Of a stretch of DNA of 28,057 nt, positions 13,640 to 28,057 are shown one piece after another (the first letter of the stretch is position 1; each line of letters starts with the position of its first letter). The stretch lies in IMG/VR virus record IMGVR_UViG_3300032322_000650, positions 1-28,057 of that record; one strand, 5' to 3'. The translations under genes were made by a program, and so were the position numbers. The notes beneath the pieces were generated by a model. That model ran no database searches. It was not told the DNA's origin and saw nothing but the letters and a program-made list of their open reading frames with translations. The DNA comes from a virus.

Positions 13640-15180
13640 GCCTGATGACGCTTACTGAAGCGGAAATCATGGTTTTATTGAAAAACCTGCACAATTTTTC
13701 CCCTGAAGAACAAGAAGAAATTGAAGCAGTAGCCGATGAGTTAACCAGACGTAAACACGCAGCCGCTTGTCGTAATGATTTAATTGAATTTTGTAAGCAT
13801 ATGCAGCCTGACTACAAAGTTGGGAAGCACCACAGGATTTTGGCTGATTTATTGATGAAAACAGCCTTGGGGTTGGAAGATAGGGTGTGCGTTAATATCC
13901 CACCACGCCACGGTAAAAGTCAGCTTGTATCTATTTACTTCCCTGCATGGTTTCTGGGAAAATTTCCTGATAAAAAGATCTTGATGGTGTCGCACACCAC
14001 AGACCTTGCCGTGGATTTTGGGCGAAAAGTTAGGAATTTGATTGCTAGTGATGCGTACAAAGAGGTTTTTCCGACGGTTGATCTTGCGGCTGATTCGAAG
14101 TCTGCGGGTCGATGGAATACTAATGTTGGCGGTGAGTATTTTGCCTGCGGTGTTGGCTCTGCTCTTGCTGGGCGTGGCGCTGACTTGCTCTTAATTGACG
14201 ACCCACACAATGAACAAGACATTATTAATGGCAACTTTGATGTTTTTGAACGTGCCTATGAGTGGTATACCTTTGGAGCGCGTACACGCTTGATGCCCGG
14301 AGGGCGGGTAGCGATTGTGCAAACCCGTTGGCATATGGACGACCTGACAGGTCGGGTGACGCGTGATATGGCTAACTCCGAGTTAGCTGACCAGTTTAGG
14401 GTGGTTGAGTTTCCTGCCATCTTTAATCCTGACACCCCTGATGAAAAACCGCTGTGGCCTGAGTTCTTTGATTTAAAAGCACTGCACCGCACAAAAGCTT
14501 CCATGCCGGTGTTCCAGTGGAACGCTCAGTATCAGCAAAACCCCACGGCTGAGGAAGCTTCAGTTGTTAAACGTGAGTGGTGGAAGGTGTGGAAAAAAGA
14601 AGACCCACCTGATTGTGATTACATTATTGTCACTCTGGACGCCGCAGCCGAAACACACAACCGTGCCGACTTTACCGCGATCACTGTATGGGGAGTTTGG
14701 AATAATGAGGAAGAGAAGAATTACAACATCATCTTGCTCAACGCGATCAAAAAGAGAGTGGAGTTCCCTGACCTTAAAGATCTTGCGATGGAACAATGGC
14801 GAGAATGGGAACCCGATGCGTTTATTGTTGAAAAGAAGGTGTCCGGCACGGCACTTTACCAAGAGTTTCGTCGCATGGGTATCCCGGTTCAAGAATACAC
14901 ACCACATCGAGGTACGGGCGATAAATTGGCGCGGCTAAACTCAGTAGCCGACATTATTAAACAAGGGTTAGTGTGGGTGCCTGAAACACGCTGGGCTGAA
15001 GAAGTGGTGGAAGAAGTTGCTGGGTTTCCGTTTATGAGCCATGATGACTTGGTGGATACAACGACGATGGCGCTGATGCGTTTTAGGCAGGGTGGGTTTT
15101 TGCGTCTACCAAGCGATGAACCAGACGATATTAAGTATTTTCGGGGTTTTCGTGGTGCTAAGCGCGGCTACTATTTGTAA
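13636..15180 (+). CDS. terL: Terminase large subunit
   Basis: This 514-residue ATPase-nuclease of the DNA packaging motor has both domains intact. In the ATPase domain, Walker A is PPRHGKS (89-95), Walker B is LLLIDD (184-189), and a coupling-type motif is VQTRWH (228-233). In the C-terminal RNase H-like nuclease domain, acidic residues lie in TLDAA (D335), VEKK (E399) and HDDLVD (D470, D471). It cleaves concatemeric DNA and pumps it through the portal. The start overlaps the small-subunit stop as ATGA. Confidence 0.97.
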   Translation: MSLMTLTEAEIMVLLKNLHNFSPEEQEEIEAVADELTRRKHAAACRNDLIEFCKHMQPDYKVGKHHRILADLLMKTALGLEDRVCVNIPPRHGKSQLVSIYFPAWFLGKFPDKKILMVSHTTDLAVDFGRKVRNLIASDAYKEVFPTVDLAADSKSAGRWNTNVGGEYFACGVGSALAGRGADLLLIDDPHNEQDIINGNFDVFERAYEWYTFGARTRLMPGGRVAIVQTRWHMDDLTGRVTRDMANSELADQFRVVEFPAIFNPDTPDEKPLWPEFFDLKALHRTKASMPVFQWNAQYQQNPTAEEASVVKREWWKVWKKEDPPDCDYIIVTLDAAAETHNRADFTAITVWGVWNNEEEKNYNIILLNAIKKRVEFPDLKDLAMEQWREWEPDAFIVEKKVSGTALYQEFRRMGIPVQEYTPHRGTGDKLARLNSVADIIKQGLVWVPETRWAEEVVEEVAGFPFMSHDDLVDTTTMALMRFRQGGFLRLPSDEPDDIKYFRGFRGAKRGYYL

Positions 15181-15191
15181 AGGGTTTTGTG

Positions 15192-17579
15192 ATGGCTATT
15201 GATAAAAGTTTATACGGCGCTCCCGAAGGGATTGAAGCCCTTGGTATGGAAGAAGCACCCATTGAGATTGAAATTATTAACCCAGAAGGTGTGTCAGTTG
15301 GTGTTGATGGTGTTGAGATTGATCTGATGCCCGAAGAAGGCGAAAAGGAAGAAGCGTTTGACTCTAACTTAGCCGAGTTTATGAGCGAAAGCGATCTGCA
15401 AAAGATTGCAGGTGACATCATGGAGTTAGTTGAGTCTGATATTAATAGTCGTAAAGATTGGGTTGATACCTATGTCAAAGGTTTAGATGTGCTTGGATTG
15501 CGCTATGACGAGGTGACTGAGCCTTGGGATGGCGCTTGTGGTGTGTTCTCCACACTACTGACTGAGGCTGCAATTCGCTTCCAGAGCGAGTCCATCATGG
15601 AGACATTCCCTGCACAAGGTCCAGTAAAGACTAATATTATCGGTGCTTGGGACCCTGAGATCGAAGAAGCTGCTAAGCGGGTACAGGCTGATATGAACTA
15701 TCAGTTAACCGACAAAATGCCTGAGTATCGCTCAGAGCATGAGCGGGCGTTGTGGGGGGTGGCACTTGCGGGTTCTTCATTTAAGAAAGTCTACTACGAC
15801 CCATCACTCGAACGCCAAGTTTCATTCTATATCCCTGCCGAAGACATAATCCTCCCCTATGGCGTAACAAACATCCGGCGTACAGACCGACTTACGCATG
15901 TGATGCGTAAAACTAAGAATGATATTAAACGGTTACAAGTTAATGGGTTCTACCGTGACGTAGATATTGGTGAACCTTACGCTAACCAGACAGATATTGA
16001 GAAAGCTAAGGCTCAGAAAGAAGGTATTGAGCAGACTAAAGATGAGCGGTATCAGATATGTGAAGTGCATATTGAGTATGACTTACCGGGGTATGAGGAA
16101 GAGCTGCCTGTGCCCTACGTCATTACTATCGACAAAGGGACTAATAAGGTCTTAGCAATACGTCGCAACTATAAGGAAGATGACCGCCAGAAACGTGCGC
16201 GTCAGCACTTTATACACTATATGTATGTCCCCGGCTTTGGGGCGTATGGCTTCGGGTTGATTCATATTATTGGTGGTTACGCCACGGCAGGGACCATGCT
16301 GATTCGTCAGTTGGTTGATGCGGGTTCATTGTCTAACCTCCCTGGTGGGTTGAAGTCCAGAGGACTGCGGATTAAGGGTGACGACACGCCTATTGCCCCC
16401 GGCGAATGGCGGGATGTGGATGTTCCCGGTGGTGCAATCAGAGACAACATACTACCTCTTCCGTACAAAGAACCCAGCCAAGTTCTTCTTGCTCTATTAA
16501 ATCAGATTACCGAAGAAGCACGACGGCTCAGTGGTATGGCTGATATGAAGATCAGCGACATGTCGAGTCAGGCTCCGGTGGGTACGACGCTGGCTCTCTT
16601 AGAGCGGCAGTTAAAGACGATGGGTGCTGTACAGGCTCGCATCCATGCAGCGATGAAAGAAGAGTTCAAGCTGCTCAAAGAGATCATCAGGGAGTACACC
16701 AGCCCAGACTATAACTACGTCCCACAGGATGGCACCCCACAGGTCAAGCAAGAAGATTACGACATTGTAGAAGTTATTCCTGTAAGTGATCCCAACGCTT
16801 CGACAATGGCTCAAAGGGTTGTGCAGTATCAAGCTGCCCTACAGCTTGCTCAGGGTGCTCCTCAGTTATACGACATGCCACGGCTTCATAGGCAGATGCT
16901 TGATGTGCTTGGTATCCCCAACGCAGATAAATTAGTACCTCTGCCAGACGATCAGAAGCCTAAAGATCCTATTACTGAGAATATGAATGTGCTTAAAGGC
17001 ACACCACTCAAGGCTTTTATCTATCAGGACCATCAGGCCCATATCACAACGCACATGACCTTCTTGCAAGATCCGAGCATCATGCAGACTATTGGACAGA
17101 ACCCGATGGCGCAGCAGATGCAGGCGGCGATGATGGCTCACGTTGCCGAGCACTTAGGATTTAGATACAGACAAGAGATCGAACAGCGAATCGGTTTGCC
17201 GTTACCCGGACCTGAACAGCAGATTTCTGAAGCTGAAGAACTTGCTATGGCTAAGTATGTATCCGAAGCTGCACAACAAGTGTTGCAGATTCACCAAGCA
17301 CAAGCCGCACAACAACAAGCTCAGGCTATGGCCCAAGATCCTCTGGTTCAGATGCAGCAGCAGGAGCTTCAGATCAAGATGATGGAGCAACAGCGCAAAG
17401 CACAGAAAGACCAAGCCGATACAGCACTCGCTGCTGCACGATTGCAAAACGAGGATAAGCGTATCCAGATTGACGCACAGAAAGAAAACGTGCGGTTAAC
17501 GAATCAAAACCGTCAAAACGATAAAAAGATCCAAGCTGATTTACTTAAAACTGCTATGTCTAAAAGGAATATTGAATGA
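15192..17579 (+). CDS. Portal protein (P22-like)
   Basis: This 795-residue protein follows the large terminase by 11 bases. Its long portal body has recognisable blocks such as EPWDGACGVFSTLLTEAAIR, RALWGVALAGSSFKKVYYDP and FHIY-type strand regions (IHYMYVPGFGAYGFGLIHII). Near the end, a long Gln/Ala-rich helical segment (about 690-750) resembles the C-terminal barrel helices of large portals such as P22 gp1 (725 residues). It forms the dodecameric DNA channel at the capsid vertex. The start at 15192 has AAAGGG 7 bases upstream. The GTG at 15189 is less likely. Confidence 0.93.
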   Translation: MAIDKSLYGAPEGIEALGMEEAPIEIEIINPEGVSVGVDGVEIDLMPEEGEKEEAFDSNLAEFMSESDLQKIAGDIMELVESDINSRKDWVDTYVKGLDVLGLRYDEVTEPWDGACGVFSTLLTEAAIRFQSESIMETFPAQGPVKTNIIGAWDPEIEEAAKRVQADMNYQLTDKMPEYRSEHERALWGVALAGSSFKKVYYDPSLERQVSFYIPAEDIILPYGVTNIRRTDRLTHVMRKTKNDIKRLQVNGFYRDVDIGEPYANQTDIEKAKAQKEGIEQTKDERYQICEVHIEYDLPGYEEELPVPYVITIDKGTNKVLAIRRNYKEDDRQKRARQHFIHYMYVPGFGAYGFGLIHIIGGYATAGTMLIRQLVDAGSLSNLPGGLKSRGLRIKGDDTPIAPGEWRDVDVPGGAIRDNILPLPYKEPSQVLLALLNQITEEARRLSGMADMKISDMSSQAPVGTTLALLERQLKTMGAVQARIHAAMKEEFKLLKEIIREYTSPDYNYVPQDGTPQVKQEDYDIVEVIPVSDPNASTMAQRVVQYQAALQLAQGAPQLYDMPRLHRQMLDVLGIPNADKLVPLPDDQKPKDPITENMNVLKGTPLKAFIYQDHQAHITTHMTFLQDPSIMQTIGQNPMAQQMQAAMMAHVAEHLGFRYRQEIEQRIGLPLPGPEQQISEAEELAMAKYVSEAAQQVLQIHQAQAAQQQAQAMAQDPLVQMQQQELQIKMMEQQRKAQKDQADTALAAARLQNEDKRIQIDAQKENVRLTNQNRQNDKKIQADLLKTAMSKRNIE

Positions 17580-17779
17580 CTTATGAACGGCAGATGCTCG
17601 ACCATTTATTTAACAAGCTTAAAGAGCGCGAGCGTGAAGTAGCCGATTCGCTTGCTGAAGGTGGCTGTAAAGATTTTGCTGAATATAGGAATTTGTGTGG
17701 CGTTATCCAAGGTCTGCGCCGTGCAAGAATGGAGGTACAAGACCTTGTGCAACGGTATGAGGAATTTGAAAATGACTGA
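17576..17779 (+). CDS. Small helical protein after the portal
   Basis: This 67-residue protein (MTYERQMLDHLFNKLKERER...) is almost entirely helical, with a YRNLCGVIQGLRRARMEVQD block and an acidic end. It overlaps the portal stop as ATGA and the following gene by 8 bases. Short coiled proteins at this position are common in phages with P22-like portals, but their role is unknown. Confidence 0.8.
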   Translation: MTYERQMLDHLFNKLKEREREVADSLAEGGCKDFAEYRNLCGVIQGLRRARMEVQDLVQRYEEFEND

Positions 17780-18149
17780 AACAGCCCAAGCTGTTATCGA
17801 AGAAGCACAGGAAAAAGCTAGGCAGTTACCGCAGGTTAGGGGTTATAAAATCCTTTGTACGCTTCCCAATATTGAAAATAAGTTTGATAGCGGGATTATT
17901 AAAGCTGATACGACAGTAAAGTTTGAAGAGTTACTGAGTAACGTGCTCTTTGTCGTAGCACTAGGTGATATGGCGTATCAAGATCAAAACCGCTTTCCTA
18001 CTGGACCGTGGTGTAAGCCTGGGGATTTCATTATTACCCGTGCAAACACAGGCACCAGACTCAAGATTCATGATCGTGAGTTTCGGATTATTAACGATGA
18101 TTCCGTTGAAGCGGTGGTCGAAGACCCCCGTGGTATCCAACGTGCGTGA
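17772..18149 (+). CDS. GroES-like co-chaperonin
   Basis: This 125-residue protein has the Cpn10/GroES-like fold pattern. It has an N-terminal strand GYKILCTLPN, a mobile-loop-like segment NKFDSGIIKADTTVKFEE, then VVALGDMAYQ, PWCKPGDFIITRANTGT and a C-terminal strand region RIINDDSVEAVVEDP. T4 gp31 and related phage proteins replace host GroES to fold the major capsid protein, and the location beside scaffold and capsid genes fits that role. The ATG at 17772 overlaps the upstream gene by 8 bases. A longer upstream ORF in the same frame is shadowed by the preceding gene. Confidence 0.85.
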   Translation: MTETAQAVIEEAQEKARQLPQVRGYKILCTLPNIENKFDSGIIKADTTVKFEELLSNVLFVVALGDMAYQDQNRFPTGPWCKPGDFIITRANTGTRLKIHDREFRIINDDSVEAVVEDPRGIQRA

Positions 18150-18157
18150 GGTGAATT

Positions 18158-19084
18158 ATGGATAAAACTGAATTTAAGTTCCCCGATGAGAAAGAACCTG
18201 AAAATAAAGCAGACGCTAAGGCTGATGCGGAGTTTGAGATTGAGATAGTTGATGACACCCCAGAACCTGATAAAGACCGTAAACCGCTTGAAGAGCCCGT
18301 TAATGAAGTAACCGACGATGAGCTTTCTAAATATGACGAAGGTGTTCAAAGGCGACTAAAAAAGTTGTCACATGGTTACCACGATGAACGTCGAGCTAAA
18401 GAAGCTGCCCTTCGTGAGCGTGAAGAAGCTTTAAGGTTTGCTCAGCAGATTGTTGAAGAAAATAAGGTATTAAAGAAAAATCTTGGCGATCACACAACGC
18501 TTTTAGTTGGCACAGCTAAACAAAACGCTGAATTTGCGCTAGCCCAAGCACGGGCTAAATATAAAACTGCATATGACGCGGGGGATGCTGATCAGATTGT
18601 TGCCGCCCAAGAAGAATTAACCCAAGCCAAACTTCGTTTGGATAAGGTTGAAAACTTTAAAGCACCCCCTTTACAGGAAACACAAATTCCTGTAAATATG
18701 CAAACTGAATCCGCTTCAGAGAATAAGCCGGACCCCAAAGCACTTGCGTGGCGAAAGCAAAATCAGTGGTTTGGGCCTAACCGACCTATGACCGCCTTCA
18801 CTCTGGGGCTGCATGAACAGTTGGTCGAAGAAGGCTTTGATCCTAGTTCGGATGAATATTACGAGAGGATCAATAAGACCCTACGTAGTAAATTTCCTGA
18901 AAGCTTTTCTAGCGAGGAGAAACCGAAACGGACGAGCAGTAATGTTGTAGCCCCGGCGAGTCGAAGCGTTGCGCCCACTAAAATCACGCTGACACAAACG
19001 CAGGTTGCGCTTGCTAAGAAGTTGAAGATCCCTCTTGAACTATATGCTAAAAAAGTAGCGGAAGGAATGACACAAAATGGCTGA
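18158..19084 (+). CDS. Scaffolding protein (probable)
   Basis: This 308-residue, highly charged protein lies upstream of the capsid gene. The N-terminal 60 residues are very acidic and disordered. About 75-175 is predicted coiled coil (DERRAKEAALREREEALRFA and following). A linker and a conserved WRKQNQWFGPNRPMTAF block follow, and the C-terminus is basic and helical (VALAKKLKIPLELYAKKVAE), as capsid-binding scaffold ends often are. It would guide capsid assembly and then be released. The position and composition are strong evidence. No enzymatic motif is present. The ribosome binding site GAGGTG lies close to the ATG. Confidence 0.85.
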   Translation: MDKTEFKFPDEKEPENKADAKADAEFEIEIVDDTPEPDKDRKPLEEPVNEVTDDELSKYDEGVQRRLKKLSHGYHDERRAKEAALREREEALRFAQQIVEENKVLKKNLGDHTTLLVGTAKQNAEFALAQARAKYKTAYDAGDADQIVAAQEELTQAKLRLDKVENFKAPPLQETQIPVNMQTESASENKPDPKALAWRKQNQWFGPNRPMTAFTLGLHEQLVEEGFDPSSDEYYERINKTLRSKFPESFSSEEKPKRTSSNVVAPASRSVAPTKITLTQTQVALAKKLKIPLELYAKKVAEGMTQNG

Positions 19085-19562
19085 GAATAAATTAGCTGCT
19101 GAAACTCAAAATCGTGGAAAACGTGAGTCGGATACCCGTGAAACTGTTGAGCGTCCTCGTAGCTGGGCACCCCCCACGCTACTGCCTGACCCTGCACCTG
19201 AACCTGGGTATAAGTACCGTTGGATTAGAGTTTCTATGATGGGTCAGAATGATCCACGTAATGTGTCAACTAAACTACGCGAAGGTTGGGAACCTGTTAG
19301 GGCTGAAGACCACCCTGAAATTTCTGGTTATTTAGAAAATGATAATCAGCGTTTCAAAGACAATATCGTTGTTGGTGGCTTGATGCTCTGCAAAACCCCG
19401 ACAGAATTTGTAGATCAGCGGAACGCTTACTATCAACAGCAAGCCGAAGCTCAAATGCGTTCTGTCGATAGTAATTTTATGCGCGAGAATGATCCACGTA
19501 TGCCTTTATTTACAGAGCGCAAATCGTCGGTGACATTCGGACGCGGTAATTCACAATCTTAG
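19077..19562 (+). CDS. Head-region protein of unknown function
   Basis: This 161-residue protein overlaps the scaffold gene by 8 bases. The first 60 residues are hydrophilic and Pro-rich. A compact part follows (YKYRWIRVSMMGQNDPRNVS, then GWEPVRAEDHPE, then GLMLCKTPTEFVDQR). The C-terminus is polar. A protein of this layout often lies between scaffold and capsid genes in uncultured phages. It is probably a minor head component or assembly factor, inferred from position. Confidence 0.8.
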   Translation: MAENKLAAETQNRGKRESDTRETVERPRSWAPPTLLPDPAPEPGYKYRWIRVSMMGQNDPRNVSTKLREGWEPVRAEDHPEISGYLENDNQRFKDNIVVGGLMLCKTPTEFVDQRNAYYQQQAEAQMRSVDSNFMRENDPRMPLFTERKSSVTFGRGNSQS

Positions 19563-19574
19563 GAGTAATTCCAA

Positions 19575-20234
19575 ATGGCTTACCCGACTATAGACAAGCC
19601 CTATGGGCTAAAGCCGATCAATCTGATCGGCGGTCAGGTGTTTGCCGGAGCTACCCGTCAGCGTCGTATTGCCTCTGGTGCTTCTAGCATCGGCTTTGGC
19701 GACCCTGTAAAGTTTGCTTCGGATGGCACTATTGTTGTAACCACGGAAACAACTACTGGCCCAGCTACTGGCTTTGCTGGTGTGTTTCTTGGCTGTCAGT
19801 TTGTTTCTTCTGTGACGGGTCAACCGACCTTCTCGCAGGCATGGATTAGCGGCACTTCGGTAAAGGCAAACACCTTTATCAATGCCTACGTCTGTGAAGA
19901 TCCTGATCAGCTTTTCCAAGTCGCTGTAGTTACAGGCACAACGGTTGTTTCGGCTACCACAGGCTTGACCTACACCAACATCAACAATAACGTGGCTTTG
20001 GTGGCTAATACCCTCAATACTACGTCTTTGGATTCGCAGCAGGCTATCCTGTTGAGTTCCGCTAACGTAACGGCAACACTGCCCTTGCGTATTGTTGATT
20101 TGGTGCCGGATACGGCGTTTACTTATAGTGGCACTGTTTACTATCCCGAAGCTATTGTTAAGTTCAATGCACCGAACGTAACCGGCTCTGTCGTGGATGG
20201 TGGTCATGCCTACTACAACCCAACCGGACTGTAA
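19575..20234 (+). CDS. Capsid decoration-type structural protein
   Basis: This 219-residue protein (MAYPTIDKPYGLKPINLIGG...) is rich in Gly, Thr, Val and Ala, with almost no Lys or helical segments. This is typical of beta-rich head decoration or auxiliary capsid proteins. It lies immediately before the major capsid gene, with AGGAG upstream of the ATG. Decoration proteins bind and stabilise the expanded capsid. The exact family is not recognised. Confidence 0.75.
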   Translation: MAYPTIDKPYGLKPINLIGGQVFAGATRQRRIASGASSIGFGDPVKFASDGTIVVTTETTTGPATGFAGVFLGCQFVSSVTGQPTFSQAWISGTSVKANTFINAYVCEDPDQLFQVAVVTGTTVVSATTGLTYTNINNNVALVANTLNTTSLDSQQAILLSSANVTATLPLRIVDLVPDTAFTYSGTVYYPEAIVKFNAPNVTGSVVDGGHAYYNPTGL

Positions 20235-20247
20235 TAGGGGAATATAA

Positions 20248-21156
20248 ATGGCTATTTCACGCGCACAACTATTGAAAGAGCTTCTCCCCGGCTTGAACGC
20301 ATTGTTCGGTCTGGAGTATGCGAAGTATGGCGAAGAGCACAAGGAAATCTACGAAACCGAGAGTTCCGAGCGTTCGTTTGAAGAGGAAACCAAGCTGTCA
20401 GGCTTTAGTGCTGCCCCGGTTAAAAACGAAGGTAGCGCCATTGCTTATGACAACGCGCAAGAAGCTTGGACCGCTCGTTATACGCACGAAACCATTGCAT
20501 ACGGCTTCTCGATCACTGAAGAGGCGATTGAGGATAACTTGTACGACAGCCTGTCTGCTCGTTACACAAAAGCTCTTGCACGGTCGATGGCGTACACCAA
20601 GCAGGTTAAAGCTGCTGCTGTGTTGAATAATGGGTTTGCTTCTACCGTAACTTACGGTGATGGTCAACCTTTGTTCTCAACAGCACATCCGCTGGTTTCC
20701 GGTGGTACTAACAGCAACACGACCGCTACGGGCGTGGATCTTAACGAAACCTCGTTGGAAAACGCAGTGATTCAGATTGCTGCATGGACTGACGAACGTG
20801 GACTTTTGATTGCTGCTAAGCCCCGCAAGCTCATCGTTCCTCCTGCTTTGATGTTCGTAGCAACCCGCCTGTTGGAAACCGAACTCCGTGTCGGTACTAA
20901 CGACAACGACATCAACGCCTTGAAGAACAACGGTTCGATCCCCGAAGGCTATACGGTCAATCACTTCTTGACCGATACCAACGCATGGTTCCTTACGACC
21001 GATGTTCCTAATGGCTTGAAGCATTTTGTACGGACACCGTTACAAAATTCAATGGATGGCGATTTCGATACGGGCAACGTTCGCTATAAGGCTCGTGAGC
21101 GTTATTCGTTTGGAGTGAGCGATCCGTTGGGTATTTACGGTAGCCAAGGCGCTTAA
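20248..21156 (+). CDS. Major capsid protein
   Basis: This 302-residue protein resembles Mu gpT-type major head subunits of the HK97 fold. The blocks supporting this are an acidic early helix (EEHKEIYETESSERSFEEET), GFSITEEAIEDNLYD, YTKALARSMAYTKQ, and the G-D-G-x-PLFSTAHP signature (about 137-147). A C-terminal strand region follows (VRYKARERYSFGVSDPLGIY). It starts at residue 1 without an obvious propeptide. AGGGGA precedes the ATG and a strong terminator follows the stop, as expected for the most abundant virion protein. Confidence 0.93.
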   Translation: MAISRAQLLKELLPGLNALFGLEYAKYGEEHKEIYETESSERSFEEETKLSGFSAAPVKNEGSAIAYDNAQEAWTARYTHETIAYGFSITEEAIEDNLYDSLSARYTKALARSMAYTKQVKAAAVLNNGFASTVTYGDGQPLFSTAHPLVSGGTNSNTTATGVDLNETSLENAVIQIAAWTDERGLLIAAKPRKLIVPPALMFVATRLLETELRVGTNDNDINALKNNGSIPEGYTVNHFLTDTNAWFLTTDVPNGLKHFVRTPLQNSMDGDFDTGNVRYKARERYSFGVSDPLGIYGSQGA

Positions 21157-21179
21157 TTACAGGCATACTGGTAACGCGG

Positions 21180-21206
21180 AAGGGGGTTGACAACCCCCTT
21201 TTGTTT
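21180..21206 (+). terminator. Terminator after the capsid gene
   Basis: A 9-bp stem (AAGGGGGTT / AACCCCCTT) closes on a GAC loop and is followed by TTGTTT. It is a rho-independent terminator placed 23 bases after the capsid stop codon. Its top half contains the -35 box of the next promoter. Confidence 0.88.
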
Positions 21207-21216
21207 GTCCTATAAT
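21187..21216 (+). promoter_or_regulatory. Consensus sigma70 promoter of the HNH cassette
   Basis: The -35 box TTGACA (21187-21192) and the -10 box TATAAT (21211-21216) are both perfect, with an 18-base spacer. The -35 box is inside the terminator hairpin. The expected start is near 21223, just before the AAGGAG ribosome binding site of the HNH gene. Confidence 0.8.
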
Positions 21217-21243
21217 TTCCTGTGTCATAACTAAGGAGATCAA

Positions 21244-21846
21244 ATGGACACCACAAACCTACCCAAAACCCGAAAAGAAGCCCAAGACAAAGGCGCTAAA
21301 TACTACTTCACGGGAGAGCCCTGCAAGCACGGCCATATAGCCCCCCGCAAAACAAAAGGTGTATGTATTGAGTGCCTAAAGGTTGAATGGGAGAAAGCTA
21401 ACGTCACTCGCGCTGAGTACTTCAAGGCTTATAACCAATCTGATGCAGGTCAACAGGCTAAGCGTAAGTACTATGAAGCCAATAAAGAAGCAGTAATTGC
21501 TAGGGCGCAAGCACGGACAGATGAGGATAAACGGCGGTATAAGAAGACCCACAAGGTTAATAACCCCGACATGTATAAAGAGATGACTAGCCTTAGAAGG
21601 CGTAGGTTTAGAGACGCTACTCCTAAATGGCTTACTGCAACTCACAAGATGGAGATAAGACTTAAGTACCGCCTTGCAATTGAGTTAAGTAGGATTACTG
21701 GAGAGCGACACGCAGTTGACCATATCATCCCCCTCGTTAATGATTTTGTATGTGGGTTACACGTACCTTGGAATCTTCAAGTGCTGACGCAAAAAGATAA
21801 TCTTGCTAAATACAATCACCTTATTGACACAACTTCCACAACCTGA
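21244..21846 (+). CDS. HNH endonuclease (probable homing endonuclease)
   Basis: This 200-residue protein has an N-terminal zinc-binding region (C27, H29/H31, C41, C44), a basic helical middle (KRKYYEANKEAVIARAQART), and a C-terminal HNH nuclease. The nuclease motif reads HAVDHIIPL (D159, H160), then GLHVPWNLQVL (H173, N177), then KDNLAKYNH (N186). It is a free-standing nuclease inserted between structural genes, with its own promoter, terminator boundary and strong AAGGAGATCAA ribosome binding site, the usual picture of a mobile homing cassette. No intron is apparent, because the genes on both sides look complete. Confidence 0.93.
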   Translation: MDTTNLPKTRKEAQDKGAKYYFTGEPCKHGHIAPRKTKGVCIECLKVEWEKANVTRAEYFKAYNQSDAGQQAKRKYYEANKEAVIARAQARTDEDKRRYKKTHKVNNPDMYKEMTSLRRRRFRDATPKWLTATHKMEIRLKYRLAIELSRITGERHAVDHIIPLVNDFVCGLHVPWNLQVLTQKDNLAKYNHLIDTTSTT

Positions 21847-21860
21847 TATAAACCGTTTAT

Positions 21861-21925
21861 CTGGGAAACCAGCTTGCTAAACTGTCCCAGCAGACGATGC
21901 ACCGATTAGCAAGCGACTTGTGCAT
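21861..21925 (+). other. Interlocking inverted repeats, candidate RNA structure
   Basis: CTGGGA (21861-21866) pairs with TCCCAG (21885-21890). GCTTGCTAA (21872-21880) pairs with TTAGCAAGC (21906-21914). ATGCAC (21897-21902) pairs with GTGCAT (21920-21925). The helices interlock in the order expected for chained pseudoknots. An alternative CTGG-GAAA-CCAG tetraloop hairpin uses the first strand. The whole set lies in the leader of the next structural gene. Confidence 0.5.
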
Positions 21926-21936
21926 AAGGAATTATC

Positions 21937-22437
21937 ATGGCAGTTTCAACAACCCAATCGATTTGGCGATCTGGTGGTGGCGATACTACGCGCACCGCAT
22001 ACTGTGGCACCGGACTTATGGTCGCTCAGTTTTATTTTGATCCCACCGCTGCTGATACGACAGCAGTTCAAGTTTCTTCCGCTAATACCGCCCCAGTAAT
22101 TCTTCCTGCTGGCGCAGTTGTTGTTCAAGTCAACATCAACGCTGCTGGTACAGGTGGAACAACGCCTACCTTTGACATGGGCTGGATTGGTTATTCGGAT
22201 ACTTCTGCTTCTGACCCCAACGGTTTGATCGCTGCTGGTGACGCTGATGCAGGTAAGCAAGTATTTGATTGGTCTACGGCTACCGCAGGTGACGACATGG
22301 GTGTGGTTATGTCCGCTACCCAGATGGTCAAGATCACTGCTGGCGCTACGACAGGCGACGCTCCTACGGGTGGTACGGCTTCTGGTCAAATCCTGTATTA
22401 CGTTACTGATCCGTTCCTCGGCCAGCAAAACGTCTAA
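21937..22437 (+). CDS. Structural protein, beta-rich
   Basis: This 166-residue protein (MAVSTTQSIWRSGGGDTTRT...) is rich in Gly, Ala, Thr and Asp and appears all-beta, with a C-terminal GQILYYVTDPF strand. AAGGAATTATC precedes the ATG. It is positioned after the capsid block, so it is probably a head decoration or virion surface protein. No specific family is recognised. Confidence 0.75.
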   Translation: MAVSTTQSIWRSGGGDTTRTAYCGTGLMVAQFYFDPTAADTTAVQVSSANTAPVILPAGAVVVQVNINAAGTGGTTPTFDMGWIGYSDTSASDPNGLIAAGDADAGKQVFDWSTATAGDDMGVVMSATQMVKITAGATTGDAPTGGTASGQILYYVTDPFLGQQNV

Positions 22438-22452
22438 TGACGGAGGCCAATT

Positions 22453-22731
22453 ATGGCTATGCAAACAGACGTTCAAGCGATTTCGCTAGCGGCTTCTGGC
22501 GACATTAGTGCGTACCCAACGCGTGTTCGTGGGTTGGTTGTCGAGCCGGGAGGTTCTGCGGGCAGTGTAATTATTAAAGATGGTGGGTCAAGCGGTACTA
22601 CACTCTTTACGATTAACACAATTGCCGGTGGTGAGACATTTAATGTCTTTATTCCTGCTCAAGGGGTCCGCTGCGAAACGAGCGCGTACGCTACGCTGTC
22701 TAACGCTAAGGTCACGGTGTTCTATGGCTAA
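22453..22731 (+). CDS. Small beta-rich virion protein
   Basis: This 92-residue protein has the pattern RVRGLVVEPGGSAGSVIIKD, then TTLFTINTIAGGE, then a C-terminal ATLSNAKVTVFY strand. Short all-beta proteins of this form occur widely next to capsid genes in uncultured phages. The ribosome binding site GGAGG lies 6 bases before the ATG. The role is unknown, probably a minor capsid or decoration subunit. Confidence 0.8.
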   Translation: MAMQTDVQAISLAASGDISAYPTRVRGLVVEPGGSAGSVIIKDGGSSGTTLFTINTIAGGETFNVFIPAQGVRCETSAYATLSNAKVTVFYG

Positions 22732-22978
22732 GTCTCCTGCTTGGCAGCGTAAGGAAGGCAAAAACCCCAAGGGCGGTCTTAATGCTAAAGGTCGTGCCTC
22801 TTACAATGCTGCAAATCCCGGCAAGCCTGGGTTGAAACCTCCACAACCAGAAGGCGGGTCTCGCCGGGATTCTTTTTGTGCTCGGATGAAAGGCATGAAA
22901 AAGAAGCTAACTTCTGCCAAAACCGCTAACGATCCAAACAGCCGGATCAATAAAAGTTTAAGGGCATGGAAGTGCTAA
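22724..22978 (+). CDS. Small basic phage protein (DUF6321-like)
   Basis: This 84-residue, very basic protein begins MAKSPAWQRKEGKNPKGGLN and ends RINKSLRAWKC. The SPAWQRKEGKNPKGGLNAKG block is characteristic of a small conserved phage family that I recall as DUF6321. The number should be checked. It overlaps the upstream gene by 8 bases. It may bind DNA or other virion components. The role is not established. Confidence 0.85.
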   Translation: MAKSPAWQRKEGKNPKGGLNAKGRASYNAANPGKPGLKPPQPEGGSRRDSFCARMKGMKKKLTSAKTANDPNSRINKSLRAWKC

Positions 22979-23230
22979 ATGGAAACAAGTACGCTTGTTT
23001 GGAATTTGATTACGTCGTTTTTCGTGGCACTTGTGATGTTTATGCTTAAACATGCCTCTGATGAACAAAAACGTATTCAGATCCTGCTGAACAAAACGAG
23101 GGAGGAAATCGCTCGTGACCACATCACTCGTGCAGAAGTTCGTGCGGATCTTGAGAAGATTATGGAACGCTTTGATTCGGGTTTTGAAAGACTTGAAGCA
23201 AAGATTGACCAGCTTGCTAAGAAGGCATAA
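22979..23230 (+). CDS. Membrane-anchored coiled-coil protein
   Basis: This 83-residue protein has one N-terminal transmembrane helix (about residues 7-24, VWNLITSFFVALVMFMLK). A long charged coiled coil follows (IARDHITRAEVRADLEKIME and on). The ATG follows the upstream stop directly (TAAATG). The topology resembles inner-membrane spanin or haemolysin-like (XhlA-type) phage proteins, but those families are not matched in sequence, and no endolysin is seen nearby in this window. Lysis or DNA-ejection roles are possible. Confidence 0.75.
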   Translation: METSTLVWNLITSFFVALVMFMLKHASDEQKRIQILLNKTREEIARDHITRAEVRADLEKIMERFDSGFERLEAKIDQLAKKA

Positions 23231-23232
23231 AG

Positions 23233-23526
23233 ATGCCAGCAGTCAGCGAGAAGCAGAGAAGGTTTATGGAAGCAGTAGCGAACAATCCGAAGTTCGCAAA
23301 GAAAGTTGGTGTCCCTCAATCTGTTGGTAAGGAGTTTACTGGTATGAAAAAGATGAACATGGGCGGCATGGCCGCAAGCAAGATGGGTGCTGTTAAGACT
23401 GCTGCCCCAAGTCGTGACGGTGTTGCTACCAAAGGTAAAACCAAAGGCAAGCAGATCAAGATGGCTGGTGGTGGAAAAATGCCTGCTATGAAAAAGGGCG
23501 GGTATATGAAAGGCGGGAGCTGCTAA
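23233..23526 (+). CDS. Small basic protein with GK-rich tail (DUF3008-like start)
   Basis: This 97-residue protein begins MPAVSEKQRRFMEAVANNPK, like the N-terminus of DUF3008 proteins. Low-complexity Met/Lys/Gly segments follow (KMPAMKKGGYMKGGSC). It is one of six small basic genes in this part of the late operon. The role is unknown, and packaging within the virion or nucleic-acid binding is a reasonable guess. Confidence 0.75.
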   Translation: MPAVSEKQRRFMEAVANNPKFAKKVGVPQSVGKEFTGMKKMNMGGMAASKMGAVKTAAPSRDGVATKGKTKGKQIKMAGGGKMPAMKKGGYMKGGSC

Positions 23527-23530
23527 ATTG

Positions 23531-23803
23531 ATGCCCTCTCGCGGAATGGGGGCGATCTCGCCCTCTAAAATGCCCACTGCCAAGCGTAAAGCTCGGCGGG
23601 ATGATACTGATTTTGATCAGTACGCTGAAGGTGGCAAAGTTAATGCAGCAGGTAATTACACCAAACCTGGGTTACGCAAAAAGATCGTATCTCAAGTTAA
23701 AGCTGCTGCAACGCATGGCACAGGCGCAGGGCAATGGTCCGCGAGAAAAGCACAGCTAGTAGCTAAGAAGTACAAAGAAGCTGGTGGGGGCTACAGAGAT
23801 TGA
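23531..23803 (+). CDS. Small basic phage protein
   Basis: This protein of about 90 residues has a central YAEGGKVNAAGNYTKPGLRK block and a C-terminal GQWSARKAQLVAKKYKEAGG block. This conserved ending is seen in many aquatic phage proteins of unknown function. The ATG at 23531 is preferred over the TTG at 23528. Very basic throughout apart from one acidic patch. Confidence 0.8.
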   Translation: MPSRGMGAISPSKMPTAKRKARRDDTDFDQYAEGGKVNAAGNYTKPGLRKKIVSQVKAAATHGTGAGQWSARKAQLVAKKYKEAGGGYRD

Positions 23804-24033
23804 AAGCTCCGCAAAAGTCGCTGAAGGATTGGGGCGATCAGAAATGGCGAACCAAAAGTGGTAAACCGTCTAGCAAAACTGGCGAACGATACCTCCCGTC
23901 GGCGGCAATTAATGCTCTTAGCCCTGCTGAATACGCAGCAACAACTAAGGCAAAGCGAGCTGGAAAAAGTGCAGGTAAGCAGTTCGTTAAACAACCGGCA
24001 AAAATTGCCGCTAAGACTGCGAGATATAGATGA
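23800..24033 (+). CDS. Small basic phage protein (DUF5872-like)
   Basis: This 77-residue protein starts at a TTG overlapping the upstream stop (TTGA). The blocks SLKDWGDQKWRTKSGKPS, GERYLPSAAINALSPAEYAA and KQFVKQPAKIAAKTARYR are characteristic of a conserved family that I recall as DUF5872. Its function is unknown. No ATG is available in this frame near the start, so the TTG is likely real. Confidence 0.85.
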   Translation: MKAPQKSLKDWGDQKWRTKSGKPSSKTGERYLPSAAINALSPAEYAATTKAKRAGKSAGKQFVKQPAKIAAKTARYR

Positions 24034-24794
24034 CCACTAGCGGCTCAACCGACTTTAATCTTGAGTTCACCGACATAGCTGAAGAAGCGTTCGAGCGAGC
24101 TGGGCGTGAAATGCGCTCAGGCTATGACTTGCGTACGGCTCGTCGGTCTATGAACCTCTTGACGATAGAGTGGGCGAATCGTGGCATCAATATGTGGACG
24201 ATTGAGCAGGGCACGAAGAATTTGGTACAGGGCACTGCGACGTACGATTTACCGGACGACACCATTGATTTGCTTGAGCACGTTATAAGAACGGGAGCTG
24301 GAAATGCCTCTACCCAATCTGACCTCACGCTTACCCGGATTAGTGTATCCACCTACGCCACAATCCCAAACAAATTGGCTCAAGCACGACCGATACAGAT
24401 TTACATCAGCCGCAATTCCGGTGCCACGTACCCCGCAACCAGCAGTTATTCTCCAAGTGCAACAGCCTACCCCCAGTTCACAGTCTGGCCTGTACCTGAC
24501 CAAGGCACAGAAGCCTCTCCGTATTACCAAGTAGTCTATTGGCGGATGCGCCGCATCCAAAATGCGGGAGATGGTATTCAGACTCCTGATATGCCGTTTC
24601 GATTCTTGCCTTGCATTACCGCAGGGTTGGCGTACTACATCGCCCAAAAGATTCCAGAGGGTATGGAACGTATCCAGATGTTGAAAGCTTCTTATGAAGA
24701 GCAGTGGAACTTTGCCGCTGGTGAAGATCGTGAAAAGGCTGCTGTACGGTTTGTTCCTCGTCGGATGTATCTGGGGAATACTGGGAGCTTCTGA
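24030..24794 (+). CDS. Head-to-tail connector or tail tube-type protein
   Basis: This 254-residue protein resembles the phage adaptor/stopper group (P22 gp4-like and podoviral tubular proteins). It has an N-terminal helical part (EEAFERAGREMRSGYDLRTA, then ARRSMNLLTIEWANRGINMW), a beta part (TYDLPDDTIDLLEHVIRTG, later YPQFTVWPVPD), and a C-terminal helical bundle (AYYIAQKIPEGMERIQMLKA). Such proteins attach below the portal and seal the head. It overlaps the upstream gene by 4 bases (ATGA). Confidence 0.8.
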   Translation: MTTSGSTDFNLEFTDIAEEAFERAGREMRSGYDLRTARRSMNLLTIEWANRGINMWTIEQGTKNLVQGTATYDLPDDTIDLLEHVIRTGAGNASTQSDLTLTRISVSTYATIPNKLAQARPIQIYISRNSGATYPATSSYSPSATAYPQFTVWPVPDQGTEASPYYQVVYWRMRRIQNAGDGIQTPDMPFRFLPCITAGLAYYIAQKIPEGMERIQMLKASYEEQWNFAAGEDREKAAVRFVPRRMYLGNTGSF

Positions 24795-25222
24795 TGCCTA
24801 ATCAGTTTGCAGCGGGTAAATATGCCATTGCTCAGTGCGATAGGTGTAACTTTCGCTTCAAACTAAAGCAGTTAAAAAGCTTGGTGATTAAGACCAAGAA
24901 CGTCAATATTCTTGTTTGCCCTGAGTGTTGGGAACCTGATCAGCCACAGCTTCAACTTGGTATGTACCCTGTGTATGACCCACAGGCTATTCGTAATCCC
25001 CGTGTAGACTCTAATTCGTACTATCAATCGGGGTTAAATGGGCTACAAATTGAACCTGTAAACGATGATTCAAGCCAAGACGAAAACGGGGTTCCATTAG
25101 GTGGTAGTCGCGTTATACAATGGGGTTGGTATCCTGTTGGCGGGGCAAGATGGTTCGATACGGGTTTAACGCCAAACGATTTAATCGGTGTTGGCGAGGT
25201 AAACTCGGTGACAGTTTCTTAG
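24794..25222 (+). CDS. Zinc-ribbon phage protein
   Basis: This 142-residue protein has an N-terminal zinc ribbon (C15-x2-C18 and C42-x2-C45, CDRC and CPEC). A Pro/Asn-rich second half carries no recognised domain. Its start overlaps the connector gene's stop (TGATG). Small zinc-ribbon proteins at this position are known in uncultured phages, and their role in the head-tail region is unclear. Confidence 0.8.
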   Translation: MPNQFAAGKYAIAQCDRCNFRFKLKQLKSLVIKTKNVNILVCPECWEPDQPQLQLGMYPVYDPQAIRNPRVDSNSYYQSGLNGLQIEPVNDDSSQDENGVPLGGSRVIQWGWYPVGGARWFDTGLTPNDLIGVGEVNSVTVS

Positions 25223-25231
25223 GAGTTCATG

Positions 25232-25411
25232 ATGGATAAAGCAGATCTTAAGCAAGACAAAAAGATGATTGCTGGTGCAGTGCACAAGCACGAGAAAGCT
25301 AAGCACAAAGGCCAGCCTCTGACCAAGCTCAAAAAGGGCGGTCCTACGGGTGAAATGATGCGTAAAATGGGCCGTAATTTAGCTCGTGTCGCTAACCAAA
25401 GAGGTCGATAA
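25232..25411 (+). CDS. Small basic protein
   Basis: This 59-residue lysine-rich protein starts MDKADLKQDKKMIAGAVHKH and ends MGRNLARVANQRGR. The ATG at 25232 is 6 bases from AGGAG, better spaced than the ATG at 25229. It overlaps the next gene by one base. It is probably a nucleic-acid or virion-packaged small protein. The function is unknown. Confidence 0.75.
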   Translation: MDKADLKQDKKMIAGAVHKHEKAKHKGQPLTKLKKGGPTGEMMRKMGRNLARVANQRGR

Positions 25412-25674
25412 TGGCTAAATATAGCCATAAAATCGGTGGTAAAGAGGTCGGTCAAGCCTCTACTTATGCGGAGCCACACACCATGCAAGGCAAAAAGACT
25501 AAAGCTGAAGCTAACCCCGGCAAGCGTATGAACGAAGACGCTATTCAACGTGATTGGCAACCGCTTGATGGTGTCGGGATTGGTAGCAACAAAGACGTTA
25601 AAACCTCTGGCATCAAGATGCGTGGTGCTGGTGCGGCTATTAAAGGTACGATGAGTCGGGGTCCGATGGCGTGA
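25411..25674 (+). CDS. Small basic protein
   Basis: This 87-residue protein (MAKYSHKIGGKEVGQASTYA...) is basic, has no clear hydrophobic core, and ends in Gly/Ala/Met-rich sequence. It is part of the chain of small basic genes and overlaps the next gene, whose GTG start lies across its stop (GTGA). No family is recognised. Confidence 0.7.
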   Translation: MAKYSHKIGGKEVGQASTYAEPHTMQGKKTKAEANPGKRMNEDAIQRDWQPLDGVGIGSNKDVKTSGIKMRGAGAAIKGTMSRGPMA

Positions 25675-26378
25675 ATTACACGGAGTTAAAAAAGGCGATC
25701 CGAGGGTATGTCGAAAACGACTTCCCGACGATTAATCTGACGGACTCAAGTACGGTCTGGAGTTCTGACGATCAGCTTGCGACTTTTGTTCAGCAGGCTG
25801 AACAGCGTATTTATAACTTCATACAGTTTCCGTCGTTGCGTAAAAATATGACGGGATTGATGGTTGCAAATAACCGTTACCTTTCTTGCCCTGACGATTT
25901 TCTCGCGCCATATAGCATGGCAGTCATTGATACAAACGGAAGGTACCACTACCTGCTTAATAAAGACGTTAACTTTATTCGGGAAGCCTATCCCATACCC
26001 ACAGGCTCAGGAAACACAGGGCGCCCTAGACATTACGCAATATTTGGACCAAAAACGTCTGGTTCAACAATAACTAATGAATTGAGTTTTCTTCTTGGAC
26101 CAACCCCAGATTACGGGTATCAAGTGGAGTTACATTTTTATTATTATCCAGAATCTATTGTGACTGCTGGGACGACTTGGCTTAGTGAGAATTTTGATTC
26201 TGTTTTACTCTATGGCGCACTGCGCGAAGGTTACTTCTTCATTAAAGCTGACCCAGATATGATGGCTGCTGTGCAGTCAAAATACGATGAAGCAATTGCT
26301 CTTGCTAAACGTCTTGGTGATGGTATGGAGCGTCAAGATGCTTATAGGTCTGGACAAGTTCGTTATCCGGTAAAGTGA
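25671..26378 (+). CDS. Phage adaptor protein (second connector-type protein)
   Basis: This 235-residue protein starts at GTG in a GTGA overlap. The N-terminal helical part (YTELKKAIRGYVENDFPTIN, then FVQQAEQRIYNFIQFPSLRK) and beta region (NRYLSCPDDFLAPYSMAVID, later VELHFYYYPES) are followed by a C-terminal helical region (YGALREGYFFIKADPDMMAA). These match the layout of the phage adaptor proteins that join portal to tail. It is related in layout, not obviously in sequence, to the 254-residue gene upstream. Confidence 0.85.
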   Translation: MNYTELKKAIRGYVENDFPTINLTDSSTVWSSDDQLATFVQQAEQRIYNFIQFPSLRKNMTGLMVANNRYLSCPDDFLAPYSMAVIDTNGRYHYLLNKDVNFIREAYPIPTGSGNTGRPRHYAIFGPKTSGSTITNELSFLLGPTPDYGYQVELHFYYYPESIVTAGTTWLSENFDSVLLYGALREGYFFIKADPDMMAAVQSKYDEAIALAKRLGDGMERQDAYRSGQVRYPVK

Positions 26379-26379
26379 T

Positions 26380-26814
26380 ATGGCAATTGTTCAAACAATG
26401 TGCACAAGTTTTAAGGCAGAAGTTGCTCAAGGCCTGCATAACTTTACAAGGAGCACTGGCGATGTATTTAAACTTGCTTTGTACGTCGCAACTGCCACCC
26501 TCGGTGCAGATACCACTGAATACAACGTGCTTACTCCGGGTCAGGCGAGTGGAACCAATTACACCGCTGGTGGGATTGCACTTACAAACATCACGCCTCT
26601 TGCAGCCAACAGTACAGGCTATTGGTCTTTCGACGACGTCACCTTTTCAAACGTTACTCTTACGTGCGCTGGGGCGTTGATCTACAATTCAACTAATGGT
26701 AATCGTGCCGTTTGTGTTTTAAATTTTGGGCAGACAATCACAAAGACTGCCGCTAACCTAGTAATCACTTTTCCGCCTATGGGCGCTACAGATTCTGTGC
26801 TAAGGATAGCTTAA
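26380..26814 (+). CDS. Virion protein, paralogue of the gene at 27014
   Basis: This 144-residue beta-rich protein begins MAIVQTMCTSFKAEVAQGLH. It shares a set of motifs with the protein encoded at 27014-27508: MCTSF near the start, HNF, DVFK/DTFK.ALY.A.ATL, SGTNYTAGG, a YW near the middle, and a LIYNS block near the C-terminus. Lacks catalytic motifs. Probably a tail or fibre-associated subunit. The paralogue pair flanks one small gene. Confidence 0.8.
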   Translation: MAIVQTMCTSFKAEVAQGLHNFTRSTGDVFKLALYVATATLGADTTEYNVLTPGQASGTNYTAGGIALTNITPLAANSTGYWSFDDVTFSNVTLTCAGALIYNSTNGNRAVCVLNFGQTITKTAANLVITFPPMGATDSVLRIA

Positions 26815-27002
26815 TGATTACAACAACCAAAGGTCTCATGGACGAGTCTCTTCTTGAGAAGAAAGAAGGGGTGTTGGATAATGATAACGAACACACGAAG
26901 TGGGTGGAGTATTGGCTTGATGGGGAGCTTGTACACCGCTCGGTACATGTGCATTTGAAGAAATCCCCGCCGTTGTTTGCTGAAGCGGCATCTATCGGAT
27001 AA
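26814..27002 (+). CDS. Small unknown protein between two paralogues
   Basis: This 62-residue acidic protein (MITTTKGLMDESLLEKKEGV...) has a WVEYWLDGELVHRSVHVHLK block. Its start overlaps the upstream stop (TAATG). It has no domain I recognise. The coupled start and the conserved-looking WVEYWLDGE segment suggest a real gene. Confidence 0.7.
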   Translation: MITTTKGLMDESLLEKKEGVLDNDNEHTKWVEYWLDGELVHRSVHVHLKKSPPLFAEAASIG

Positions 27003-27013
27003 AGGAGTTTATT

Positions 27014-27508
27014 GTGGCAAATACACAATCCATGTGTACCTCTTTTATGGGTGAGCTTTTAACGGCGACTCATAATTTTGGCACCGCCCCCTTACGGGCA
27101 GCGACAACGGCTGATACGTTTAAGGCAGCTTTATATTTAGCTTCTGCAACGCTTAATGCGTCAACGACGGCGTATACAACTACAGGCGAAGTATCGTCGA
27201 GTGGGACTAACTACACCGCAGGAGGAGCAACAGTCACTAATGCAACTGCTCCAACATCAACCAATGCTTCTGCCACAGCAGGTACTGCGTACTGGACACC
27301 CTCTGCTTCGATAACCTATGGAACCTCGGGCAGTCCTGTGACATTAACCACGGCTTTTGATTGTGTATTGATTTATAACAGTAGTCAATCAAACAAAGCG
27401 GTTAGTGTTCACACGTTTGGATCGCAGACGGTAACAGCGGGAATTTTCACGCTGACGATGCCTTCAAATACGACGAGCACAGCACTGTTGCGTTTAGCAA
27501 CTACCTGA
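27014..27508 (+). CDS. Virion protein, paralogue of the gene at 26380
   Basis: This 164-residue beta-rich protein begins with GTG behind AAGGAG (7-base spacing). It has the shared MCTSF, HNF, ADTFKAALYLASATL, SGTNYTAGG, YW and LIYNSS motifs in the same order as its paralogue. It also has a Thr/Ala-rich insertion (ATAPTSTNASATAGT) that accounts for the extra length. It is probably a structural tail component. Confidence 0.82.
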   Translation: MANTQSMCTSFMGELLTATHNFGTAPLRAATTADTFKAALYLASATLNASTTAYTTTGEVSSSGTNYTAGGATVTNATAPTSTNASATAGTAYWTPSASITYGTSGSPVTLTTAFDCVLIYNSSQSNKAVSVHTFGSQTVTAGIFTLTMPSNTTSTALLRLATT

Positions 27509-27514
27509 CCGGAG

Positions 27515-27531
27515 AGCGGGTTTCCCGCTTT
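27515..27531 (+). terminator. Weak terminator-like hairpin
   Basis: AGCGGG-TTT-CCCGCT forms a 6-bp stem with a 3-base loop, followed by only two T. It lies between the stop at 27508 and the next start, so it may be a weak terminator or processing hairpin. Confidence 0.5.
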
Positions 27532-27536
27532 AAGCC

Positions 27537-28057
27537 GTGTTTGGTATAGACGCCTTTTCAGAAGCGCCATTTTCGACGCTTCCGGGAACCGCAGATGTTC
27601 TTGTAGCGCTTACCGGTGTTGCAAGTACAGGTGCGGTAGGGACAGCATCACCATCAAACACGTTAGCGCTTACTGGCAATCAGGCAACAGGTAATGTAGG
27701 TTCTGTATCACTTGGCGCGGACTTAGCCGGTGTATTAGCAAGCGGTCAGGTTGGTAGTGTTGCAACTGAGAGATCGGTTGCACTGTCTGGCGTTACGGCA
27801 GCGGGTTTTGTAGGTACTGTTTCTGGCGTTGGGCAGTTAGTCGGGAATCAAGCAATTGGGTCCGTTGGCACTGTAGCACCCACACAGTCTGTAGCACTTA
27901 CAAGCGTCTTAGGGTCTGGGTTATTAGGAACGCTTGAACCTTCAATCACACGGGCACTTACAGGGGTTTCAGCAAGCGGCGCAGTAGGTGATGTTTCGTA
28001 TGCTACTGCTACGGGCGTTGAAGCATCTGGCGCACTAGGTTCTGTTCAGAGTAATAT
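27537..28057 (+). CDS. Start of a repeat-rich fibre-like protein, cut by the right edge
   Basis: An open frame from a GTG at 27537 to the edge encodes 173 residues. It starts (V/M)FGIDAFSEAPFSTLPGTAD, then at least eight imperfect repeats of 18-20 residues. The consensus is ALTGVxASGxVGSV plus a variable segment. An in-frame stop lies two codons before the GTG. No Shine-Dalgarno sequence is seen. Regular Gly/Val-rich beta repeats of this sort are found in phage fibre or tail-associated proteins. The full length is not visible. Confidence 0.8.
   Translation, partial: MFGIDAFSEAPFSTLPGTADVLVALTGVASTGAVGTASPSNTLALTGNQATGNVGSVSLGADLAGVLASGQVGSVATERSVALSGVTAAGFVGTVSGVGQLVGNQAIGSVGTVAPTQSVALTSVLGSGLLGTLEPSITRALTGVSASGAVGDVSYATATGVEASGALGSVQSN
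27606..28050 (+). repeat. Imperfect 54-60-base coding repeats
   Basis: About eight degenerate repeats encode ALTGVxASGxVGSV-type units in the partial fibre-like gene. They are diverged at the DNA level, so they are old rather than recent duplications. Confidence 0.75.

Follow-up and report, generated by a model that had tools for sequence, protein, structure and literature searches.

Where the frd and ampC transcription units of E. coli meet, the same DNA serves a terminator and the adjacent promoter region, as it appears to do at the viral junction analysed here. Counterparts of the gene that follows this junction are found in phage T4. Like it, mobE and segD of T4 are free-standing endonuclease genes with a late or essential gene on either side. 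Of the two, segD adjoins the capsid gene and has terminators on both sides; mobE carries a terminator, and the downstream nrdB gene has its own promoter, situated between mobE and nrdB (PMC2988022, in part). Co-conversion of flanking DNA is known for the free-standing homing endonucleases of T4, and a late promoter and a hairpin stand directly before the gene of the T4 homing endonuclease I-TevI, which resembles the arrangement described below (PMC2988022, in part). Among the open-access papers listed for promoters inside terminators, capsid-adjacent homing endonucleases, structured RNAs of this kind and the named relatives, none describes the joint itself.

The DNA analysed here (the window) is a virus record of 28,057 bases, and all of its features discussed below are on the plus strand. 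The DNA of this region is 65–68% identical to the five best matches among public phage records. The upstream gene (20248–21156) encodes the major capsid protein (Pfam Phage_capsid_4, E = 2e-16; PHROG major head protein, E = 3e-26). It is followed by a gene with an HNH/endonuclease VII-type catalytic domain (21244–21846; PHROG 1035, endonuclease VII, E = 9e-16), a putative free-standing homing endonuclease, the Shine-Dalgarno sequence of which (AAGGAG, 21233–21238) is seen in the sequence. A Pfam search with this HNH gene gave no match at 0.01 and a PDB search no relative (E values of 0.37 and 0.59 are those of chance matches). The next open reading frame (21937–22437) is a structural gene without a family match of its own in Pfam or PHROG; it can be called a “cement protein” gene by position only, after the annotation of record DSL-LC04.

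The segment between the capsid and HNH genes (21180–21216) combines two signals. Folding and a terminator scan identify a hairpin core at 21180–21200, with nine base pairs and a GAC loop, which reads AAGGGGGTT-GAC-AACCCCCTT. Its T-rich tail (21199–21208, eight T out of ten) is interrupted by a G after four T and again close to the end. The RNA fold of 21174–21210 has a free energy of -19.2 kcal/mol (z = -3.54), which was equalled by none of 200 shuffles. This stable G+C-rich hairpin, which the terminator scan includes, and the U-tract from 21199 onward are the hallmarks of an intrinsic (Rho-independent) terminator. The apex of the same hairpin is a -35 box, TTGACA (21187–21192), and a -10 box, TATAAT (21211–21216), follows after a spacer of 18 nt. 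Both boxes, found in the sequence and by a promoter scan, match the sigma70-type consensus at six of six positions, with a spacer in the standard range of 16–18 nt. Sequence, scan and fold thus confirm the preliminary description, which had placed a perfect -35 box within the hairpin and a perfect -10 box 18 bases further on. The HNH transcript is predicted to start at about 21222–21224.

A perfect TTGACA-N16-18-TATAAT occurs once in the 28,057-base window, where 0.02 occurrences are expected, and 2 of 100 shuffles contained one. A consensus scan of 14000–28057 finds neither class of signal enriched: promoter-like sites number 15 (15.7 expected) and terminator-like sites 16 (14.3 expected). 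The promoter at 21187–21216 is the only scanned site with a 12/12 score, so it is the hairpin/promoter pair alone that stands out.

Relatives were collected from a capsid search (best 80 of at least 600 matches) and an HNH search (best 80 of 98), to which three phage records, the window and the window's own copy (L163) were added. One locus, L081, is identical to the window across the fetched part. Of 160 capsid-gene places, 86 have the HNH gene within 300 nt and 74 do not, numbers that come from different queries and are not frequencies. At this one site, some relatives carry the HNH gene and close ones lack it, as is typical of homing. By a fixed rule, a terminator lies 3' of the capsid stop codon in 53 of 54 unique loci with the HNH gene and in 66 of 72 without it; the same rule is satisfied by 0 of 114 stretches taken from upstream of that gene and by 0 of 126 shuffles. 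Four of the seven loci missed by the rule have a hairpin visible by eye (L016, L047, L070 and L094), while L080 and the distant L160 and L162 have no post-capsid hairpin by rule or eye. The hairpins at this place in relatives have other sequences and other loops (UUCG, CAAAA, UUGUG).

Promoters are also found at junctions that lack the HNH gene. Where such a junction runs straight into the leader of the next gene, a TTG is found at spacer 16 or 17 in 20 of 33 cases, compared to 0 to 3 at each of the other spacers between 8 and 31 from the chosen -10 box. HNH junctions have a second TTG peak at spacer 9 (12 of 52), which stems from a TTTTTGT run and weakens the spacer test for this group; the HNH-less group is clean. 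In these 33 HNH-less junctions, the TTG hexamer is wholly inside the hairpin in nine (as TTGTGC or TTGCAA) and outside it in ten, while eleven have no TTG and three no rule hairpin. One of the nine is the public record DSL-LC04 (L161), with the -35 TTG within the hairpin and the -10 box after it. For the 52 unique HNH junctions, the corresponding numbers are 12 wholly inside, 6 overlapping, 9 outside, 24 without TTG and 1 without a rule hairpin. The promoter sits beside the terminator in most HNH cassettes, and the overlap is therefore not required. Within the group with a window-like joint, TTGAC is constant while the hairpin arms vary (types L003, L081, L082, L112 and L123).

The preliminary description had named the presence of the joint unit in relatives without the HNH gene as evidence against it. 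In kind it is present there, in 9 of 33 junctions, but every perfect 12/12 overlap seen belongs to a junction with the HNH gene, and none of the HNH-less junctions examined has one. The further claim, that the unit created the insulation for the HNH gene, is not supported, and the HNH gene is rejected as creator of this insulation, as terminators already follow the capsid gene in HNH-less loci and some of these have the overlap as well. The comparison suggests instead that the cassette occupies a junction whose insulation predates the arrival of the HNH gene. An alternative goes further and regards the overlap as native to the border between the capsid gene and the next gene, with the HNH gene dropped behind an old promoter that it then took over. 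The near-universal post-capsid terminator and the overlaps at the same place in HNH-less relatives speak for it. We nevertheless consider this alternative unlikely because the sequences of the hairpin and promoter track the HNH gene rather than the capsid gene or the gene downstream, and because the window and L132 have swapped the hairpin and promoter along with the HNH gene.

Joint inheritance is demonstrated by comparison of 41 unique HNH loci. With the identities of the capsid 5' part and the downstream gene held as given, the identity of the capsid–HNH gap correlates with that of the HNH gene (partial r = 0.47, reached in 0 of 500 permutations). Gap identity does not correlate with that of the capsid 5' part (partial r = -0.04) or of the downstream gene (0.02). 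For the 3' end of the capsid gene, the correlation is 0.35 with the gap (0 of 500) and a weak 0.20 with the HNH gene (4 of 500). HNH identity also correlates with the capsid 5' part (0.44), so the exchange is not free of ancestry, and the permutation test leaves some effects of relatedness in the gap–HNH correlation.

Exchange as one block is seen between the window and L132, which differ in a sharply bordered block from about 21060 to 21857 comprising a synonymously recoded capsid tail, the terminator, the promoter and the HNH gene. In 50-base bins, the two are 90–96% identical over about 300 bases to the left of the block and 96–100% identical over about 650 bases to its right. Codon comparison shows that the last 33 capsid codons (21055–21153) take part in the exchange of the cassette: L132 differs from the window at 20 of 33 and L154 at 25 of 33, with the amino acids unchanged, while L083, whose HNH gene is 94.5% identical, differs at 1 of 33. 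Further upstream in the capsid gene, L132, L154 and L083 are each 32 to 37 of 807 bases away from the window. A 33-codon synonymous block with sharp borders in these loci corresponds to the co-converted flank of a homing endonuclease, and the recoded capsid tail is as expected if co-conversion accompanied homing; as a further inference, the recoding may protect a target site in the capsid tail.

Since the terminator-promoter unit tracks the HNH gene and was exchanged between the window and L132 as one block with it, the unit belongs to the homing cassette. The position of the element between the capsid and HNH genes and its inheritance with the HNH gene support this part of the preliminary description. 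Segment 21180–21216 is thus probably a fusion of an intrinsic terminator with a sigma70-type promoter, which together form the front of a homing cassette. This reading and that of an ancestral junction can both be true in turn, if the junction is ancestral and was later carried by the cassette.

The back end of the cassette carries a second promoter, which the preliminary description left out. Comparison of the sequence with the open reading frames places a -35 box of the next gene, TTGACA (21824–21829), in the last HNH codons, and a -10 box, TATAAA (21847–21852), directly 3' of the HNH stop codon, with a 17-nt spacer. TTGAC is found within the last 40 nt of 47 of 55 unique complete HNH open reading frames, always as NTT GAC, and is missing from this stretch in the remaining 8. 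The two codons encode I-D in 29 cases, V-D in 12 and L-D in 6. Elsewhere in those reading frames, GAC is used for 167 of 374 Asp residues, and 510 of 1517 I/V/L codons end in TT. A TANAAN at spacer 17 from TTGAC, usually right past the stop codon, occurs in 42 of the 47. Because these HNH reading frames are related, the counts do not represent independent events; even so, TTGAC is constant while the residue varies. Comparison of relatives shows constraint on both -35 boxes of the cassette.

The gene downstream is preceded by a pseudoknot leader RNA (21861–21925), which consists of helices P1, P2 (crossing) and P3, as derived from covariation and alignment. The third helix adjoins the ribosome binding site, and the leader is also present in L004, L009, L161 and others. 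It lies about 50–110 nt past the capsid stop codon in HNH-less loci with no other insert and 700–745 nt past it in HNH loci, a comparison that reveals the insertion site of the cassette. A strict leader finder, which misses some leaders visible by eye, gave 101 matches on the plus strand and 3 on the minus strand in 1,080,771 bases. The leader finders used here require pairing, and their pair tables are therefore partly circular. The leader structure is shown by a plain alignment of 43 leaders, made without reference to the structure (which was taken from the row of the window): 84.9% of its cells pair, and covariation is 0.632, compared to 0.07–0.13 when the structure is slid. In the crossing helix, 94.3% of the cells are paired and all nine pairs have changes on both sides. 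Rfam contains nothing at gathering threshold for the leader, no match at E up to 5 for 21150–21960 and none at E up to 1 for nine relatives, so this strongly covarying leader matches no Rfam family. The leader core pattern is found in 62 viral contigs; the capsid gene is upstream in all 56 that have enough flank, and the HNH gene is present in 21.

The post-capsid site accommodates other genes, too. It harbours GIY-YIG genes in L044 (5023–5727) and L021 (5018–5599), an endonuclease VII gene different from this HNH in L080 (4964–5821) and a gene of the GIY-YIG/endonuclease VII kind in L008 (5104–5859; a weak match, below the Pfam cut-off). Small proteins (MEFTLTIDFGFGE..., MYKITIDL...) are encoded there in L013, L030, L031, L064, L049 and L061; the one in L013 has no Pfam match. 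With such a range of genes, the place looks like a general landing site. Just past the capsid terminator, L008 and L035 contain a sequence like the 5' leader of the HNH gene (CCTGTGTCGTAA / CCTGTATCAAAG) with no such HNH behind it, a possible remnant of a lost cassette. Distant second HNH copies (31–33% identical) are located about 3.4 kb upstream (L074) and about 3.7 kb downstream (L150) of the capsid stop codon.

The combination of this hairpin with TATAAT recurs in unrelated genomes. The pattern GGGGTTGACAACCCC-N8-18-TATAAT is present in 43 viral contigs that form 20 sequence families, 19 of them unrelated to the window. Although 11 spacers were allowed, the spacer is 17–19 in 42 of the 43 contigs (by family: 17 in ten, 18 in seven, 19 in two and 22 in one). 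The central-T mirror (the palindrome read on its opposite strand) is followed by TATAAT in no viral contig. Bacterial and archaeal genomes contributed 11 contigs with the hairpin and TATAAT, all with spacers of 16–18, and a T-rich stretch in three of them. TTGACA at the hairpin apex is thus combined with TATAAT both in unrelated viral contigs and in genomes that are, by record title, mostly of the Clostridia type (L164-L206, L210-L220). The mirrored hairpin CCCCTTGACAAGGGG with TATAAT was found in 3 contigs and a tandem, non-overlapping form (UUCG hairpin, TTGACA, TATAAT) in 14.

That a terminator loop merely happens to read TTGACA is highly improbable. A GTTGACAAC hairpin always supplies a -35 box at its apex for free and the window has no excess of promoter-like sites, both of which would suit a coincidence, but the low expectation for a 12/12 site, the spacer bias among the viral contigs and the empty central-T mirror class lead us to reject a chance origin, and TTGAC stays constant while the arms change.

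Among the 20 viral families, a T-rich tail is present in 9 and an open reading frame ends just upstream in 12. With so few T-rich tails, the palindrome may not be a terminator in other families, and some of the palindromes in families without the tail may be operators. Extended to the window, this would make the hairpin a regulatory palindrome at the -35 box, bound by the HNH protein or a repressor, with termination incidental. TTGACAA is a natural palindrome, the 11 families with GGGGTTGACAACCCC and TATAAT but without the tail fit such a role, and I-TevI sets a precedent of an endonuclease that represses its own promoter (PMC2988022, in part). However, the window does have the T-rich tail, and the unlike hairpins and loops at the same place in relatives fit terminators and not an operator, so for this locus an operator is quite improbable.

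For the preferred reading, a terminator-promoter at the front of a homing cassette, the following events can be proposed. A polymerase that transcribes the capsid message would reach the hairpin and its T-rich tail and release the RNA. As duplex DNA, the same stretch would supply TTGACA at the apex and TATAAT past the tail, and for this reason a new message, that of the HNH gene, would start near 21223. The cassette has the capsid terminator on one side and the pseudoknot leader on the other, and its last codons (NTT GAC) and the bases past its stop codon would form the -35 and -10 boxes that drive the leader and the next gene. Owing to the front joint and the back-end promoter, the cassette would supply a stop and a start of its own at the front and remake the neighbour's start behind. 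It travels with about 33 terminal capsid codons, as in break repair with co-conversion after homing. In this scheme, termination and initiation by the host polymerase, as well as endonuclease activity and homing, are what we infer from sequence comparison. In this way, a selfish homing gene could reside next to an essential capsid gene without much cost, with a stop and start at its front and its coding end serving as the promoter of its neighbour. Joints of this kind recur in unrelated viruses, and the hairpin-apex -35 box with its central-base control offers a simple rule for finding them by sequence, which makes the reuse of polymerase after termination testable in vivo.

Such reuse leads to a more doubtful extension, a polymerase relay. 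The RNA would be dropped at the hairpin, transcription would restart from the promoter embedded there without the polymerase leaving the DNA, and the separate message of the next structural gene would receive a 5' pseudoknot that protects or times its translation; homing genes would have evolved to slip in by means of a front terminator-promoter and the neighbour's -35 box in their last codons. A promoter near a terminator can be used by an RNA polymerase that has released its RNA yet stayed on the DNA (PMC6978380, PMC11347151, both in part). This recycling is known in vitro for the E. coli polymerase (PMC6978380, PMC11347151, both in part), and it is argued that reuse would be of little benefit to lytic phages that have a polymerase of their own (PMC11347151, in part).

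Several details set the joint apart from the known systems. In the frd/ampC case, the ampC promoter is in frdD and the attenuator ends the frd message, but the -35 box is not known to lie in the hairpin. The hairpin of I-TevI masks the ribosome binding site in early and middle transcripts and does not act as a terminator (PMC2988022, in part), whereas the one described here is proposed to end the upstream message, and at 21180–21200 it stops 32 nt short of AAGGAG. A small fixed hairpin over the HNH ribosome binding site (a weak stem in 21215–21240 in the fold) was considered and rejected, as its form, judged by eye, varies between relatives. In T4 mobE, the terminator is within the 5' coding region and the promoter is intergenic (PMC2988022, in part). 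Here, the terminator stands in front of the endonuclease gene and contains the -35 box of the cassette promoter within its hairpin, and the -35 box of the downstream gene is written into the codons of the endonuclease.
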